NCBI GenBank assembly: GCA_035048485.1
Contig: CM068583.1
Coordinates: forward strand, 29,760,841 to 29,824,840
Length of the DNA stretch: 64,000 bases
Direction: 5' to 3'
DNA from: Pteria penguin
Lineage: Eukaryota; Mollusca; Bivalvia; Pterioida; Pteriidae
Shown: one piece after another, positions 2,531 to 53,700 of the stretch
Position numbering within the stretch: the stretch's first letter is position 1
Layout of the letters: each line of letters begins with the position of its first letter
Translations under genes and position numbers: made by a program
The notes under the pieces: generated by a model
The model's database searches: none
Told to the model about the DNA's origin: nothing
What the model saw: only the letters and a program-made list of their open reading frames with translations

Positions 2531-4960
2531 TCATATAGTCCCCACCGCCCTGTAAGTCAGCGTGCAACGTTCAAGTAAAAGTCTGCATAAGGCTGTAGAG
2601 GGGCCAAATACAAGACCTATAGTCTTTTTGATGATCTCAATATCATATTGTCTATTTAGGAGACGTTTGACTATTTTATTACATGATAAAATAACGTTAT
2701 CGGAGCCTTTTACTTTCCTTAGTTTATATACGAGATCACCGTAAAAATTAGGATGGGAAATTCCATTGGATACATACTGTTGAAAAGAAATATTTCCAAA
2801 TTTAGATAGAAGTTCTGAATAAGATCTGAAGAATTTGCCGAATGTTTTTCTTAGCTTGTGATATCTGTAACCCTGAGTTAAAAAGTTAGTAGTAATTTGT
2901 AAATTTCGTTTATGAAAGTCCAAAACATCGGTACAGCCTCTGACAAGTCGAACTAATTGGTATATATAGATACCATATGATGGGAGTCGAGGGACATCGC
3001 CATCCAAATAAGGGATATTTACAGTAGGAAATCCAAAATCCTCACGTTTATCATAAATATTAGTATATATTAGGTTGTTGATAATTTTGATGTTTAAATC
3101 TAAGAAAGGTGTAGATTTATCTCAAGTATTAGCTTTATTCAATGTGAGCTCTGGTGGATATATTTCTGATATAAATTGTTCGAAATCAGGGTTATCGATA
3201 ACCAAAATGTCATCCAGATATCTGCAAGTATTATTAAATTTGTCAATGAGGTCAAACGTTTTGATTTTTGAATAGAAACCATAAAATCCCTCTCATAACA
3301 ATAAAGAAATAAATCTGCTATCAGAGGCGCGCAGTTAGTGCCCATATGAATCCCAACTATTTGTTGATATATCTTGCCATCAAATTGCACAAAAATATTA
3401 TTCATGAGAAAATCTAGTGCTTTACATAATTCCTTGCAAGTCCAGTATTTATATGAAGTATATTGTTTGTTGGAAAAGAATCCGGAGTTATTGGAAGTAC
3501 ATATGTACGTTTGAGATTCTCTGTGAAAACACCATTGTATAAGAGACAGCAACTTGCTTTTAATCAAATCATGAGGCAGAGATGTATAAAGTGTAGAAAA
3601 ATCAAATGTAGAAATTTGAGTCGCTTTGAAATTTAGCGAAAGAAGTTTGTCTATAACTTCATGAGAATTTTTAATCGACCAAAAGTAATTGATGTTACTA
3701 TTATGAAATGCGACATCACAATATTTGATAATATGATCTTTTATAGCAGTTAGAGCAGATGTAATATGTTTCAATAGTACCGTAGTAGAGCAGTGGCTAG
3801 AATTAGATATGAAACGTGATTTATATGGACTTTTATGTAGTTTTGGGAGCCAATACATGGTTGGTAGATCAGATTTATCAGGTTTAATTTTGAAGTCGGA
3901 CATGGTCATGAGGAGATCGTGCAAGGTGCTTTCTTTTGAGGTAGGGCTTTCAACATATGTATGAGTGGAGTTTAATTCGTTTTTAAGTACTTCAATATAA
4001 TATAGTTTTCAAACAACTATTATGTTATTACCTATTTTATCAGCGGGAACAAAGACATACTAAGCATGTAAGTCAGCTATCTTCTTTTTAATAGAATTTG
4101 TCGTCAATGTATTAGGCTGTTGAAATAAATGCGGATTTTCCGTAAAGTTCTTAATACGGATATCGACAATTCTTAAAATCTCGAATTTCCAATCATTAAG
4201 AGCATGAACATTTACCTGTTTTTTACACCAACTTTTACAATATGTAGTTAAAGCATCTTCTATAACGTCACGGCATTTATTGAAATCTATCCTGGACGGT
4301 AACCTATATTTAGGTCCTTTTCCAAAAAGGGTGCGCAATTTCTTGTCCGAAATACAGTTTAGGTCACCAGTAATAACATGACCTGCCGGTTTATAAACAT
4401 ATTTAGAATTTTCACAAGAACACGACGAAGGAATAGAGTCTGAAACATCAGGGTTAGATGTGACTTTATTATAATTTAAAATAAGATTTCTTATAGGCTT
4501 TTTGTATGGTAACAAATAAGTGGAGGTTCTAAATTCTCAAAATATTGGGGGATTTTAGATGTGACTCTATGATCACGGAAAATATTAGAAATGTTAAGTA
4601 GATCGAAGCCTTTATTAATAAATTTAATTTTGAGAAATTGCTGCTTGGGTGGAAGAGACGGAATACGAGGAAAGAGTTTATTATATGAAAATAAAATAAT
4701 CAAATTGAGTTTATATCAATCAGAATTGCGTAAACTTCGAAGATCAGCTTCGTCCAGGATAGGTTTCAGTTTATTTACCGGAATAGAGGATAGTGCATGC
4801 AAAAGTTCATGACGGCCATTATTTTTTGCGATAAATAGAAGATCGTTTAATGACCTATTTAAACGATTACGTTTTCTGATGTTACGATTACGACGACGAC
4901 CATGTGACCTACGTTTTCTAATAGTTTTATGTCTTAATGTAAAAATATTGATCTTATTCT
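2531..4960 (-). pseudogene. RT-A: broken reverse transcriptase of a Penelope-like-type retroelement
   Basis: Pieces of one long protein follow each other on the minus strand. From the N-terminus they are: an arginine-rich segment (about 4945-4860, with GRRRNRN), a region ending LRSLRNSD then an in-frame TGA near 4717, a cysteine-bearing segment (4060-4515), the RT core (3139-3924) with FDFSTLYTSLP (catalytic Asp, motif A) and MGTNCAPLIADLF (motif B), then RYLDDIL (motif C) in another frame around 3200-3225, and a C-terminal part (2531-3007). The frame changes between pieces and a further TGA lies near 3119, so no intact protein is possible. The motif set resembles Penelope-like RTs. I saw no GIY-YIG endonuclease domain, so the exact class is inferred. 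The element would have copied itself through an RNA intermediate in the germ line. Confidence 0.75.
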
Positions 4961-5059
4961 GACGAGAAGAAATATTACCTTGTCGATATATTTGGTCGTT
5001 GAGACCAAGAGGGTATGGGGTTTGTAGTTGTTTAATCCAGTAAAAAGCAAAAATCTGAA

Positions 5060-6065
5060 AGACAAAAATCCTTTAACTATGAAATTTTAGTATTGTACAG
5101 TCGAAGACATAACCTATCTCGAAGTAACATTATCGAAAAATGGTAACATGACATCTGCAGTTTATGACCAAGCTACTACTACATTATTTTTGTTTTTCTA
5201 AAAATTATTTTCTATATTTATTATAACCACTAGAACGGTGTCACTGATAGTCCCCGAGGGCATCATAAGTCTAGTTTTCAGTGCTTTTGTACTGACGGTC
5301 TAAATTTCAGTGCGTTTGTACTGGCATGAGATATATACTTAAAATTTTCCGTCATGAAATTATACAATAATAATGCGCATCTGGTGCACAAAATTAGAAG
5401 GTATATGTGTTTTATTATTGAAAAGATGAATTTTCTTATATCTAAATGTAATTAAAGTTTCTATAATCAGTCATCTTATTTTTCCTATCGTGGTTTATGA
5501 ACCACATGAGAGCTATTCAATGTTTAAACACCAGATCAATTTTATGGAAATTATCCTTGTTCTAGTCACATGATATAAAACTGTTCGTAGAATTTAGAAA
5601 CAATTGTCAAGAGTTATATGTTATTTTGATTAATCAATTAAGAATTCATATTAAACTAAAAAGTGTTTTGCATAGCACATGTGACTTTTTGGCATATAAC
5701 AATTCCAGTATTATTTTCAAAGGTAAAGCGTGTACAACGTAGTCACTTTTTATAGTGAACATGTCGAAGTTGCACAGATCTTTACTTTATTAACATACAT
5801 CCATGCATGTCCATATAATGTCAAATAACAGAACATGGATTTTCATTACCATTGTCGAGCATCCTGTAACATGTCATGGTAACAAAGTACCAGAAACCCA
5901 TTTTATTCCCCACGTAATGTGATGGAAATTATTTCCACAGAAACATGAATTATAGTTTTAGAATACGGAAAGCCGTGGCGTATATTTCTTGTTCAACGCA
6001 TTAAAATATCAAATATCTAGAAATGCATTGATAAAATCTTTCTTTTGGAATTCTTTTAACATTGA
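5060..6065. other. No gene recognised
   Basis: AT-rich. The start may be the 5' leader of RT-A. A short direct repeat, 'cagtgcttttgtactg' then 'cagtgcgtttgtactg', lies near 5279-5325. No coding signal was seen. Confidence 0.35.
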
Positions 6066-37434: not shown

Positions 37435-39295
37435 TCGGGAAAGAATTTAGGGAGCAGGTCGACCCACTGGGTACCGACGCTACGACTCCTGTTCGATTCT
37501 GGCTGTCGTGTCTGGGATAATTTATCATATTTTTCCCATTTGTCCTTCAAATGAGACAGTATAAACTAAGACTTGTGTCTTTGTATACGTTGGCAGATCA
37601 GACAGTATAAACCGAGACTTCTGTCAGTGTATACGTTGGCAGATAAGACAATATACACCGAGACCTGTGTCATTGTATACGTTGGCAGATAAGACAAAAT
37701 AAACTAAGTCATATGTCATTGTATACGTTGGCAGATCAGACAGTATAAACCGAGACTTCTATCAGTGTATACCTTGGCAGATGGGACAATATACACTGAG
37801 ACCTGTGTCATTGTATGCGTTGACAGATGAGACAGTATAAACCGAGACTTCTGTTCAGTGTATACGTTGGCAGATAAGACAATATATACTAAGACCTGTG
37901 TCAACGTATGCGTTGGCAGATGAGACAATATACAATGAGATCTGTGTCATTTATACGTTGGCGGATGAGACAGTATACAATGAAACCTATGTCATTGTAT
38001 ACGTTGGCAGATGTGACAATATACACTGAGACCTATGTCATTGAATACGTTGGCAGATGAGATAATATATACTAAGACCTGTGTCATTGTATACGTTGGC
38101 AGATGAGACAATATACACTGAGACCTGTGTCATTGTATACGTTGGCAGATGAGACAATATACAATGAGACCTTTGTCATTGTATACGTTGGCAGATGAGG
38201 CAGTATACACTGAGACCTTTGTCATTGTATACGTTGGCAGATGAGGCAGTATACACTGAGACCTGTGTCATTGTATACGTTGGCAGATGAGACAATATAC
38301 ACTGAGACCTTTGTCATTGTATACGTTGGCAGATGAGGCAGTACACACTGAGACCTGTGTCATTGTATACGTTGGCAGATGTGACAGTTTACAATGAGAC
38401 CTTTGCCATTGTATACGTTGGCAGATGAGACAATATACAATGAGACCTTTGTCATTGTATACGTTGGCAGATGAGACAGAATAAACTGACCTATGTCATT
38501 GTATACGTTGGCAGATGAGACAATATACACTGAGACCTGTGTCATTGTATACGTTGGTAGATGTGACAATATACACTGAGACCTGTGTCATTGAATACGT
38601 TGGCAGATGAGATAATATATACTAAGACCTGTGTCATTGTATACGTTGGCAGATGAGACAATATACAATGAGACCTTTGTCATTGTATACGTTGGCAGAT
38701 GAGGCAGTATACACTGAGACCTTTGTCATTGTATACGTTGGCAGATGAGGCAGTATACACTGAGACCTGTGTCATTGTATACGTTGGCAGATGAGATAAT
38801 ATACACTGAGACCTGTGTCATTGTATACGTTGGCAGATGAGACAATATACACTGAGACCTTTGTCATTGTATACGTTGGCAGATGAGGCAGTATACACTG
38901 AGACCTTTGTCATTGTATACGTTGGCAGATGAGGCAGTATACACTCAGACCTGTGTCATTGTATACGTTGGCAGATGTGACAGTTTACAATGAGACCTGT
39001 GTCATTGTATACGTTGGTAGATGAGACAATATACAATGAGACCTTTGTCATTGTATACGTTGGCAGATGAGACAGAATAAACTGACCTATGTCATTGTAC
39101 GTTGGCGGATGAGACAATATACACTGAGACCTGTGTCATTTTATACGTTGGCAGATGTGACAGTATACAATAGACCTATGTCACTGTATACGTTGGTACG
39201 TAAAAGATCTTTCCAGCTCCGGTATGGTCGCTTGCACAGGTTCAAATTAGGAGGTAATGCTTAAGGCAGGTGCCACCACAATACTAGAGATATCA
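37435..39295 (+). mobile_element. tRNA-derived SINE copy interrupted by an internal tandem array
   Basis: The left edge has a decayed B-box ('ctgttcgattctgg' near 37487-37500) and 'ttgtccttcaaatgagacag' (37540-37559), equal to the 'ctttcggatgagacag' of the 9020 SINE. The right edge resumes the SINE body: 'ggtacgtaaaagatcttt', 'gcacaggttcaaatt', 'taaggcaggtgcc' (39195-39280), matching 'ggcacgttaaagatccctc', 'gcaaaggtcaaaattt' and 'caggcagatgcc'. The array between replaces only the ~45 bp that separate these landmarks in the intact SINE. Confidence 0.7.
37545..39200. repeat. 46-bp minisatellite derived from SINE body
   Basis: About 36 units of ~46 bp: 'gttggcagatgagacaatat', 'acactgagacctgtgtcatt', 'gtatac', with variants such as 'caatatacaatgagacc' and 'cagtataaaccgagac'. 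The oldest-looking units, at the left (37560-37880), keep 'cagtataaaccgagac', closest to the SINE ('cagtaaaaaccgagtc'). Blocks of variants recur, for example 'ttgaatacgttggcagatga' followed by 'gataatatatactaag' at ~38042 and ~38590, so multi-unit duplications took place. Open frames across it are artefacts. Confidence 0.93.
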
Positions 39296-43794: not shown

Positions 43795-44875
43795 TATTAT
43801 TAACACATATACATCATATACACTGCATCATACTTGCACAGAGACATCAAATACACTGCATCATACTAACACAGACATCACATACACAACGTCATACTTA
43901 CACGCAGACATCACATACACTGCGTATTACTTACATAGACATCACATACACTGTGTCATACTTACACAGTCATCACATACGTCATACAGACATTGCATAA
44001 TACTTACACAGAGACATCACATACACTGTGTCTTACTTACACAAAGACATCACATACGCTGCGTCATACTTACACAGAGACATCACATACACTGTGTCTT
44101 ACTTACACAAAGACATCACATACACTGTGTCATATTTACAGAGACATCACATACACTGCGACATACTTACAGAGACATCACATACACTGCACCATACTTA
44201 CACAGACATCACATACACTGTGTCACACATACACAGAGACATCACATACACTGCGTCATACTTACATAGAGACATCACATACACTGTGTCACACATACAC
44301 AGAGACATCACATACACAACGTCATACTTACAGAAAGATATCACATACACTGCACCATACTTACACAGAGACATCACATACACTGTGTCACACATACACA
44401 AAGACATCACATACACAACGTCATATTTACAGAAAGACATCACATACACTGCGTCATACTTACATAGAAACATCACATACACTGTGTCATACTTACAGAG
44501 AAATCACATATACTGCATCCATACTCAGACAAAGCCATCACATACACTGCATGATACTTACACAGAGACATCACATACACTGCATGATACACTGCGTCAT
44601 ACTTACAGAGACATTACATACACTGCATAATACTTACACAGAGACTTCACATACACTGCATGATACACTGCGTCATACTTACAGAGGCATTACATACACT
44701 GCATGATACTTACACAGAGACTTCACATACACTGCGTCATACTTACAGAGACATCAAAGACACTGCATCATACTTACACAGAGACATCACATACACTGCG
44801 TCATACTTACACAGACATACACTGTCATACTTACACAGAGACATCACATACACTGCTTCATATTTATACAGCTTG
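43795..44875. repeat. 33-bp minisatellite
   Basis: About 30 units of 33 bp or shorter variants: 'cttacacagagacatcacat' then 'acactgcgtcata'. Because 33 is a multiple of three and few units hold stops, open frames of 237 and 200 codons run through on one strand and 94 on the other. All three are repetitive (SHTLCHTYTET-type or DITYTVSYLHR-type) and start and end within the array, so I do not call a gene. Confidence 0.93.
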
Positions 44876-47741: not shown

Positions 47742-50700
47742 TTAAAGTTCTGCAATACTCTGAAGAATCTGATGATGGCACTGGGCAAGGTTGATGACCG
47801 ATTTTCTAACATCAAGAACTATTGATCTGTCCTGCAATCATGAAAGACAAGGAATATTTAAATCATACACTATTCTTAACAAAGATCTCTTTATATATAC
47901 ATATAGAGGAACTTTGATAACTCAAAGGTCCAAAACTTGAAAACCCATGAAAACTCATAGTAATCATGTGGTCCATACAACCTTTCTATTCAGTTAAATA
48001 ACAACATGAAAACATCAAAAACTCAAACCTTCCAAAACTAAATATTTCAAATGTCTCTAACGCTTCGAGTTATCAAAGTTCTACTGAGAAATTCAATTCA
48101 AAGCAATCAGAGATTTCAATGATTCCTTTAAAATGAACAACAGTGTTATTACCAGACTTGTGAAGAAAGCTGTTTCTCTTGGTTTCTCAGAATATCGTTC
48201 AAACTGGTCTAAACTGTCCTGTAACTTCAAGGTAAGTGTGTCATAGTTTGCCCTCACTACATCCAAAACCTAAATGAATCATCAGACAAAAATCTTTCTT
48301 TCAACCAGAATTCAACAATTAGAATATGTATTTATAAAGATCAGTACTTCTGAAACTAAATTCCTCTTGATATCAAAAATTACTTGAGAAAAGGGAAATT
48401 GTGTAATATTTTCGAAAATTATATTCATTTGTTACATTCATATTATCAATATAATTTGGATAAATTTTTCAACGAAATAAAAAATCCTTTTCAATGTATA
48501 TTTTTGTTTATCAATACTAAATAACATCATTAGTTTTTATTACTGTTACATTTGTCATTGTATATGAATACAATTTTTATTTTAGTGAAATACAAATGTA
48601 CAAATACCTTGTTATACAAATTACTAACCTGTTCCTCTGTTAAAGAGGCCAGTTGATTGGTCGCTGCCCATGCATCAACTTTTGGTGTAAAGTGATTAAT
48701 GATGGCTCTAAAATTATCCAAATATTCACTTACAATATAACAATCAATATTGGTGACAAATATTCACTTACAATATAACAATTAGTATTGGTGACAAATA
48801 TTCACTTACAATATAACACTCAGCGTTGGTGACAAATATTTTCGTACTTTTATGGAACTAAATCTTAATAATATGAGTGTATACTCAGTTATTTACTCTG
48901 TTGATACCTTTAGTTTGATCAGTGACGAATGACGATGATTAAATATGAAATGTATTTGAGTCAACTTCAAATATAAAAAATCTGTCATCAAAGGAGACTA
49001 TACGCTATAAATTAGTTTTACAAAACATGTATAAGATATTTACATAATTCTTTTTTGCATAAAGAAATTAATATCTATCAATTATAAATATTAGAAAAAC
49101 TCAGAATATATATTTTTTTTCAAATATAATGAAAATTCAATTGACATGCAATATGACGATAAGCTATAATTTAATGATATTACATATATCTTATATTGAA
49201 AAAATGATGGCATTAATGAGTTAAAAAATGTGATTTTATGATAAAAAATTTATGTGATATTGACTGAATGATTGATACTGATGAATAATATGCTGTGACA
49301 TACTACACTTGCCTAATATTGACCAGATGATTGGTATTAATGAATAATATGCTGTGACATTTACCTAATATTGACCAGATGATTGGTATTGATGAATAAT
49401 AAGCTGTGACATTTTACTACATTTACCTGATATTGACCAGATGACTGGTATTGATGAATAATATGCTGTGACATTTACCTAATATTGACCAGATGATTGG
49501 TATTAATGAATAATATGCTGTGACATGATACTACATTTACCTGATATTGACCAGATGATTGGTATTGATGAATAATATGCTGTGACATAATACTACATTT
49601 ACCTAATATTGACCAGATGATTGGTATTAATAAATAATATGCTGTGACATGATACTACATTTACCTGATATTGACCAGATGATTGGTATTGATGAATAAT
49701 ATGCTGTGACATGATAGAACACTTACCTAATATTGACCAGATGATTGGTATTGATGAATAATATGCTGTGACATGATAGTACACAATATTGACCAGATGA
49801 TTGGTACTGATGAATAATATGCTGTGACATGATACTACATTTACCTGATATTGACCAGATGATTGGTATTGATGAATAATATGCTGTGACATGATACTGC
49901 ACTTACCTAATATTGACCCGATGATTGGTATTGATAAATAATATGCTGTGACATGATACTACATTTACCTGATATTGACCCGATGATTGGTATTGATGAA
50001 TAATATGCTATGACATGATAGTACACTTACCTAATATTGATCAGATGATTGGCATTGATGAATGATATGCTGTGACATGATAGTACACTTACCTAATATT
50101 GACCAGATGATTGGTATTGATGAATAATATGCTGTGACATGATAGTACACAATATTGACCAGATGATTGGTATTGATGAATAATATGCTGTGACATGAAA
50201 CTACATTTACCTGATATTGATCAGATGATTGGTATTGATGAATAATATGTTGTGACATTTACCTGATATTGACCAGATGATTGGTAATGAGGAATAATAT
50301 GCTGTGACATAATATTACATTTACCTAATATTGACCAGATGATTGGTATTGATGAATAATATGCTGTGACATGATACTGCACTTACCTAATATTGACCAG
50401 ATGATTGGTATTGATGAATAATATGCTTTGACATGATACTGCACTTACCTAATATTGACCAGATGATTGGTATTAATGAATAATATGCTGTGACATGATA
50501 CTACATTTACCTGATATTGACCAGATGATTGGTATTGATAAATAATATGCTGTGGCATCATACTACATTTACCTGATATTGACCAGATGATTGGTATTGA
50601 TGAATAATATGCTGTGATATGATACTACATTTACCTGATATTGACCAGATGATTGGTATTGATGAATAATATGCTGTGACATGATAGTACACTTACCTAA

Positions 50701-53700
50701 TACTGACCAGATGATTGGCATTGATGAATAATATGCTGTGGCATGATAGTACACTTACCTAATATTGACCAGATGATTGGTATTGATGAATAATATGCTG
50801 TGATATGATACTACATTTACCTGATATTGACCAGATGATTGGTATTGATGAATAATATGCTGTGGCATGATAGTACACTTACCTAATACTGACCAGATGA
50901 TTGGTATTGATGAATAATATGCTGTGACATGATAGTACACAATATTGACCAGATGATTGGTATTGATGAATAATATGCTGTGACATGAAACTACATTTAC
51001 CTGATATTGACCAGATGATTGGTATTGATGAATAATATGTTGTGACATTTACCTGATATTGACCAGATGATTGGTAATGAGGAATAATATGCTGTGACAT
51101 GTTACTACATTTACCTGATATTGACCAGATGATTGGTGTTGATGAATAATATGCTGTGACATGATACTGCACTTACCTAATATTGACCAGATGATTGGTA
51201 TTGATGAATAATATGCTTTGACATGATACTGCACTTACCTAATATTGACCAGATGATTGGTATTAATGAATAATATGCTGTGACATGATACAACATTTAC
51301 CTGATATTGACCAGATGATTGGTATTGATGAATAATATGCTGTGACATGATACTATATTTACCTAATATTGACCAGATGATTGGTATTGAAGAATAATAT
51401 GCTGTGACATGATACTACACAATATTCACCAGATGATTGGTATTGATGAATAATATGCTTTGAAAGGATACTGCACTTACTTAATATTGACCAGATGATT
51501 GGTATTAATGAATAATATGCTGTGACTTGATACTACATTTACCTGATATTGACCAGATGATTGGTATTGATGAATAATATGCTGTGACATGATACTACAC
51601 AATATTCACCGGATGATTGGTATTGATGAATAATATGCTGTGACAAGATACTACATTTACCTAATATTGACCAGATGATTGGTATTGATGAATAATATGC
51701 TTTGACATGACACTGCACTTACCTAATATTGACCAGAGGATTGGTATTAATGAATAATATGCTGTGACATGATACTACATTTACCTAATATTGACCAGAT
51801 GATTGGTATTGATAAATAATATGCTGTGACATGATAGTACACAATATTGACCAGATGATTGGTATTGATGAATAATATGCTGTGACATTTACCTGATATT
51901 GACCAGATGATTGGTATTGATGAATAATATGCTGTGACATAATACTACATTTATCTAATATTGACCAGATGATTGGTATTGATGAATAATATGCTGTGAC
52001 ATAATACTACATTTACCTGACATTGACCAGTTGATTGGTATTGATGAATAATATGCTGTGACATTTACTGGATATTGACCAGATAACTGGTATTGATGAA
52101 TGATATGCTGTGACATGATACTACATTTACCTAATATTGACCAGATGATTGGTATTGATGAATAATATGCCTTGACATGTTACTACATTTACCTGATATT
52201 GTCCAGATGATTGGTATTGATGAATAATATGCTGTGACATTTACCTGATATTGACCAGATAACTGGTATTGATGAATAATATGCTGTGACATGTTACTAC
52301 ACTTACCTATTATTGACCAGATGATTGGTATTGATGAATAATATGCTGTGACATAATACTACATTTACCTAATATTGACCAGATGATTGGTATTGATGAA
52401 TAATATGCTGTGACATGATACTACATTTACCTGATATTGACCAGATGATTGGTAAGTCGAGCTGCTGAATCTTTGCTTTCATCATCATTGGTAGTGTAGC
52501 GCAAAGCTGAAATATAAAATGAAAATAAATCATAGTTCTGTAATTTAACACTTCAATAGCTATAACTTTCTCATGTACTTCAATGTGTATATATGTTTCT
52601 CCATTTACTTATCTATTTACAACTTATCAGAATATTAGTATCACATGTTTTTCTCAATCTAAACATAATAACACACCCATTGAGTAAAGGTTGTCAAATA
52701 CTTGATGCATTCTGATGATTTCGTAGTAAAGTTCATCATAGCTATTTGGATTTGGTAGAAAGGTATCACCATATGTGATGAACAGATTGAAGATGTTTAT
52801 AATCTGAAATAAATAAACATAAAATTTGTCATTATTGTTATCTGATACGACTTCAATCATATATGTAACAAGAGGTTACTCAGCTTGGTATCCCTTGGAA
52901 AGACAGTATAAAGACATTATTTATCCATTTATAACTGCAACTAGAATTACATCAAAATAATTTTTTCAGCAAAGGTTTTGAAAACCTTAATGCAACCTTA
53001 ATGTAACTCATATTGATGGTCAATGTTGATTCTCCATAGATTATATGTAGTAAATTTCTTCTATATTAGTTATTTCAAAAATAGGAAAATTAAGGTAGTT
53101 AAGTGGTATACAGAAAACAGACGACAAAATTGCAGCATTATTTGTACAGAATGGTTGACTCATAGACAAGACCTATCAACAGTATACATATATATTTTAA
53201 AATTGCAGAAGTGTTAAACAGCATTTAGGTATTATTAGTTGCATAATCATCAGGTGACTGGGTATGGGATGATACATGGTCAGTAAATTTTATACCTAGT
53301 TGAGGCAAAGCTGAACTGAATAATGACTATGTAAAGAAATAACCCACCAATGATCTAATACTTCAATCATCAATTTAATTTAAATAAGATTATTATTATA
53401 CTGGTATTGTTACTTCTTTTCTATCTTGTCTGCACTAAAAACAGAGAACTGTTTGGCCGCCATGTTTGTTTATGAATTGAATACACCCACGAGAGATAAC
53501 TCTTACTAATGATATTGAGCTGCTGGTCAATCCCGACATTATACCAACCATCTGGAAAATTGCAGGAAAGATTTGATGTCCCCGACGTTGTACAAGATTT
53601 GTCATTAGAGCTAGAAGCCATGTATAAGATATACTCAATCAGTACCTGGCAGCTCTAAGCCAGTCCCAGTCTGCAATTACATAACAATTTAGTCAGAGGT

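Follow-up and report, generated by a model that had tools for sequence, protein, structure and literature searches.

Tandem repeats that span exon-intron boundaries have been described in amphioxus under the name of mirages, in Adh3, the globin genes BflGb6 and BflGb9 and troponin C, and in imperfect form in PGBD5; in the accessible portions of these reports splicing is stated to be undisturbed by them (PMC3087553, PMC3902484). Tandem-repeat changes at exon-intron boundaries also occur in human segmental duplications (accessible text of PMC2812944), and the splicing of human ABCA7 is affected by the length of a variable number tandem repeat (VNTR) in its intron 18 (accessible text of PMC5954066). 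Here we describe an array of this type in the gene ARMH3 of the bivalve Pteria penguin, within a window of 64,000 nucleotides (assembly GCA_035048485.1, contig CM068583.1, positions 29,760,841 to 29,824,840 of the forward strand) in which the gene lies on the minus strand. One ARMH3 exon is followed by its own 5' splice site and then by 52 clear copies of its end and donor, an arrangement that the cell probably tolerates.

The gene was identified from the protein translated across the predicted junctions, which matches Pfam ARMH3_C (E = 4.4e-55). The original prediction placed the true donor at 52430/52431, and this position is borne out: the ARMH3_C match runs across the junction, and the peptide LVNI/RAIINHF that spans it (here and below the slash marks a junction) is common to the human protein P0011, which reads ALVNIRAIINHF. 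In the 120 relatives aligned, those listed of 299 found, the exon-end codons T, N, H, L, V, N and I are identical in shares of 0.33, 0.56, 0.07, 0.89, 0.62, 0.93 and 0.66, and past the junction I99 is identical in 0.94 and H102 in 0.97. Judged by this conservation the coding exon is old, though its T and H are not, and the exon is the source and the repeat the copy. Exon placement covered the gene downstream of 53.8 kb; with the last coding exon placed as in Table 1, the array intron is the third from last. Several ARMH3 relatives align over 99-100% of a query containing this last exon, and its similarity to the human tail is at chance level. A sequence search gave no PDB relative, and no ARMH3 relative was found in the genome contigs collection.

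Directly 3' of the exon at 52506-52431 (minus strand) stands GTAAATGTAG, and each unit of the array that follows consists of the exon end, the donor region and about 38 bp of intron sequence. Tandem Repeats Finder (TRF) delimits the array at 49357-52454 with a period of 62, 51.5 copies and 87% match. Cutting the units at the exon-derived motif, a pattern of our own, gives 54 segments: the first is the real exon end and donor, segments 2 to 53 are the clear copies, which span 52391-49277 downstream of the exon, and segment 54 is degenerate. Within the unit the exon part reaches 24 bp back from the junction, 23 of which match the TRF consensus, and this overlap scores 21.5, where 971 random upstream positions score 7.5 at most. 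Both a unit of about 62 bp carrying the last 24 bp or so of the exon plus the donor, and the presence of dozens of such copies past the true donor, had been proposed from the sequence and stand. The units contain AG dinucleotides, including one beside each donor, and no strong pyrimidine tract was seen in them by eye. Counting gaps, the units (53 in all) have a mean pairwise identity of 0.87, and the commonest lag between identical units is 13 units (3 of 40 pairs), as expected from internal block duplication. A search of the genome (838 Mb) with the exon end and donor returned 52 matches at E <= 0.001, all at the ARMH3 locus (a single candidate region went forward to scoring, and counts for repeats are minimum values); a dispersed repeat family is not supported, since every match lies at this locus. 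A 29-base pattern has no exact match in viral contigs.

The strength of the donors was taken as their pairing energy with the 5' end of U1. An intact AG/GTAART (R, A or G) is found in 42 of the 52 copies, and the array holds 13 copies of AGGTAAGT and 29 of AGGTAAAT. By 9-mer, the copies comprise 20 with the CAG/GTAAAT of the true donor, 13 with TAG/GTAAGT, 9 with TAG/GTAAAT and 10 in which the donor is broken or altered, six of these through a loss of 6 bp. The true donor pairs at -8.3 kcal/mol and the TAG/GTAAGT copies at -11.6 to -12.4 kcal/mol, with the four other placed ARMH3 donors at -5.1 to -9.8 kcal/mol (one scored one base out of register). The notion that all donors are near-equal has to be given up: relative to the true donor 13 copies are stronger and 9 weaker. 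CAG at -3 to -1 and GTAAGT are never combined in the array, though both parts are common. The combination CAG/GTAAGT, the strongest donor of its type, is absent among the 43 intact donors, whose units come from few types.

Use of any later donor would yield ATC AGG TAA, a stop right past the old junction, just as had been foreseen from the sequence. With the second donor, 59 nt would separate this stop from the new junction, and two more junctions would follow. Messenger RNAs that carry a premature stop upstream of exon junctions are expected to undergo nonsense-mediated decay, and decay of later-donor mRNAs is expected on these grounds.

Some other genes of this genome seem to carry arrays built like that of ARMH3. 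Triples of CAGGTAART at a spacing of 20-50 bases number 856 + 564 in 838 Mb, against 123 + 122 for the reversed motif, one array yielding many matches; single CAGGTAART sites number 14,460 + 14,001 against 7,448 + 7,255. Among the matches listed, 100 donor places correspond to 16 arrays in the first 90.85 Mb of contig C1 (two neighbouring blocks at 66.99 Mb taken as one), and the reversed motif gives 1 array on C1 and 5 on C1-C3. After correction for single sites, donor arrays are in excess by about 4.4 to 5.1-fold (binomial p 0.0016 to 0.0005), an estimate that assumes lengths of C2 and C3 between those of C4 (74.1 Mb) and C1 (93.6 Mb), and a test framed after the data had been seen, with the reversed motif as an imperfect control and single-site counts inflated by array copies.

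In 6 of the 16 arrays, all of which were inspected, the border donor lies at the end of a frame that looks exon-like by eye (L042, L043, L048, L049, L051 and L052; in L043 the border was set by eye, at a donor earlier than that of the script). Open frames ending at the first donor in L039 (80 aa) and L044 (55 aa) were left uncounted as not exon-like. Pfam matches above cut-off were obtained for two of the six, L048 (TSP_1, 8.8e-10) and L049 (ERMP1_C, 3.9e-8), and below cut-off for L051 (RRM_1, 0.028) and L052 (FF, 0.052); the exon-like frames of L042 and L043 gave no Pfam match, and manually joined pieces downstream of the L043 array match a C2 domain (1.2e-17). The exon end recurs within the unit over 36 bp in L052, 23 in L048, 19 in L049, 18 in L043 and 9 in L051, in all cases above the random maximum, narrowly so in L051 (9 against 7.5). 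In L042 the exon end is not in the unit (4 against a random maximum of 6). The L052 array (positions 4448-5123 of G000:C1:82166500-82175500) has a 45-bp unit and a frame that is open for several units and gives VSQQYYMGHNKSYDQ repeats; since the frame is open through these units, later donors would add 15 residues each with no stop. In a further locus outside the 16 (L055, G000:C1:1382900-1384400, minus strand) the array shares 38 bp, 35 of them matching, with an exon-like flank, an overlap scored with no random control. This flank is likely a small exon, with the donor-bearing array downstream and an acceptor-like repeat, TTTGTTTTGTAGGTGATTTTAGTAATGATATG, upstream.

By structure the ARMH3 array is a mirage, in a mollusc: its tandem unit spans the exon/intron boundary (24 bp of exon, donor and intron), the authentic boundary lies in the array, unit 1 being the ARMH3 exon end, and many, not all, of the repeats retain AG/GT signals (42 of the 52 downstream copies). 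It probably arose when a segment spanning the exon/intron boundary of ARMH3 was duplicated in tandem, and then grew into the intron via unequal exchange or slippage. The 76-nt exon would be defined from the upstream acceptor to the first donor, and the array would be tolerated for that reason; the exon-proximal donor would normally win, and the surplus donors would leave with the intron. A slip to a later donor would leave three exon junctions downstream of a premature stop and lead to nonsense-mediated decay, so that some ARMH3 mRNA would be lost and no full protein made. We consider a tolerated boundary minisatellite, with the exon-proximal donor normally winning, to be the probable explanation of the array. 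Several observations weigh against it. With U1, 13 of the 52 copies out-pair both the true donor and the four other placed ARMH3 donors, so that, were strength alone to decide, later donors should be used to some extent, and no exon is evident at 10 of the 16 inspected arrays. Also, in the accessible text of the respective reports, a human ABCA7 isoform retains one VNTR unit, out of frame (PMC5954066), and two downstream repeat units of human IFI6 act as donors (PMC4526556).

The stronger copies could alternatively mean that the array is regulatory, its TAG/GTAAGT decoys drawing U1 and diverting transcripts to the premature stop, with array length setting ARMH3 output. The stop that follows from every later donor would fit such a role, as would the dependence of ABCA7 splicing on VNTR length and the isoform with a retained unit. 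Distinct substitutions per column are also slightly fewer in donor columns +1 to +6 (3 in 6 columns, 0.50) than in the 23 exon columns (0.70) or the 33 other columns (0.91), counts that are too small to show selection and come from non-independent units. However, 10 of the 52 donors are broken or altered, and we judge a regulatory array unlikely, though some tuning of ARMH3 output by the array is possible.

A broader question is whether donors are special in seeding such arrays. The genome is minisatellite-rich. The 16 loci and the window, about 211 kb in loci chosen for holding an array, contain 27 other arrays with periods of 15-120 and no fewer than 4 copies; the donor motif is present in 2 of these, one of them the ARMH3 array. 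Acceptor-like triples (TTTTNCAG) number 3267 + 3685 against 712 + 1053 for the reversed motif, and about 8 acceptor-bearing arrays occur in the first 12.9 Mb of C1 among the matches listed, the 100 listed acceptor places being mostly one dispersed element. This element lies near 0.25, 5.74, 12.36 and 12.39 Mb of G000:C1 and has TTTTTCAGAGTTTTGCAG-type repeats that lie some 4 kb from each other and are oppositely oriented. The acceptor census speaks against a reading confined to donors: since acceptor-bearing arrays also occur, a preference for donors is suggestive only, and the census does not establish that 5' and 3' boundaries differ. Seeding at random across the ends of exons accounts for much of the pattern. 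That 5' splice sites act as hot spots where minisatellites arise or survive, with many introns repeating their own donor in tandem and splicing as a rule choosing the first, sometimes weaker one, is a tentative idea that we rather doubt.

Two further alternatives to a tolerated mirage concern the intron as a whole. The intron could itself stem from an exonic segment that contained AGGT and was duplicated in tandem, as in the Rogers model, with the array as a remnant; AG/GT is present in most units, and fission-yeast genes with 24-bp AGGT arrays are described as spliced as introns (accessible text of PMC4974935). However, the unit reads GTAAATG after AG and the next exon begins AGCCATC, a mismatch that excludes a simple split of the exon within a duplicated AGGT. 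Simple intron gain of this type, in which the duplicated AGGT supplies both splice sites, was therefore rejected, and the model in general is very improbable. Slightly less probable still is a U1 sponge, or anti-termination device, in which 42 extra U1-pairing sites, the 13 and 29 motif copies counted above, prevent premature polyadenylation within the intron: the latter measures only 3.7 kb, and the array and the rest of the intron lack AATAAA and hold a single ATTAAA, outside the array, which leaves little to protect against. An assembly or repeat-collapse artefact can practically be dismissed, for although tandem arrays are error-prone in assembly and the array length may be off, the sequence differences among units are structured, the array begins at a conserved exon end, and the assembly is of large scaffolds (838 Mb in 49 contigs).

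Other repeats occur in and around the gene. At the opposite end of the array intron, just before the acceptor, lies a second small tandem repeat (48719-48840, 38 bp, 3.2 copies), whose copies contain GTAAGTGAA, with a branch-point-like TACTAAT in one. Downstream of the last ARMH3 coding exon a 33-bp minisatellite (43803-44871) has on the ARMH3 strand the unit TGTAAGTATGACGCAG, within which GTAAGTAT is complementary to U1. A 46-bp minisatellite of about 36 copies at 37551-39196 is without the donor motif. A neighbouring single-exon protein has its best named match in Pinctada imbricata (59%), with oyster (Saccostrea) and scallops among its 28 matches, as would suit a pteriomorph bivalve. Coordinates of the ARMH3 features are collected in Table 1.

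Table 1. Positions within the window of the ARMH3 exons, the array intron and its parts.
Feature	Position	Strand	Basis
Upstream exon, protein ends LYSM	52677..52803	-	Sequence; within ARMH3_C match
Exon that is the repeat source, 76 nt, 3' end ACCAATCATCTGGTCAATATCAG	52431..52506	-	ARMH3_C match; alignment of relatives
True 5' splice site CAG/GTAAATGTA, junction 52431/52430	52422..52433	-	Protein continuity; U1 duplex -8.3 kcal/mol
Whole intron, 3,723 nt, GT...AG, 85% array	48708..52430	-	Computed from sequence
Array, 53 units of 52-62 bp, the first overlapping the exon	49277..52453	-	TRF; unit table; identity
Degenerate copy or copies, far array end	49150..49276	-	Segment 54; sequence
Next exon after the array intron	48629..48707	-	Sequence; within ARMH3_C match
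Penultimate exon, protein ends FFTSL	48153..48269	-	Sequence; within ARMH3_C match
Last coding exon, through stop	47742..47831	-	Splice signals and frame

The ARMH3 array amounts to a natural construct for the choice of donors, in which 52 copies come after the real donor and 13 of them are better partners of U1 than it is. If the recurrence in this genome holds, it suggests that exon-boundary minisatellites are common in minisatellite-rich genomes and are no peculiarity of lancelets. The original prediction knew of no described case of this kind, and in this it was wrong: as far as the accessible texts go, the amphioxus mirages, the ABCA7 intron 18 VNTR and the minisatellite of IFI6 (6-16) are close in kind. 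No mollusc array of this sort was present among the literature matches listed, most subscription papers lying beyond the search, and in their accessible texts an abalone intron minisatellite and an earthworm metallothionein intron are not described as donor-bearing boundary arrays.

The IFI6 minisatellite multiplies splice donors as that of ARMH3 does, and in IFI6 downstream units are reported, in the accessible account, to be used. It was reportedly treated, under the names IFI6, 6-16 and G1P3, by Turri et al. in 1995. The human segmental duplications share with ARMH3 minisatellites at exon-intron boundaries, but there, according to the accessible text, units average 30 bp in 4 copies, lie in primate paralogues and in some cases form novel introns. 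In ABCA7, as in ARMH3, the repeat flanks an exon and includes its splice donor, whereas the 25-bp ABCA7 unit has the donor GT as its first bases, includes no part described in the accessible text as derived from the exon, and is polymorphic, disease-linked and measured in its effect on splicing. In amphioxus, according to the available portions of the reports, minisatellite-like tandem duplications run across the exon/intron boundary and many units keep AG/GT, as in ARMH3. Amphioxus is a cephalochordate, Adh3 units there measure 10-72 bp, duplication can involve 5' as well as 3' boundaries, and the two BflGb6 haplotypes hold 6 and 3 units, compared with 52 extra copies in the mollusc. The splicing outcome is reported for the amphioxus mirages, whereas the ARMH3 array is known here from genome sequence. 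The kind is thus already known from amphioxus, and what is new is its occurrence in a bivalve and its apparent recurrence in the genome of that bivalve.

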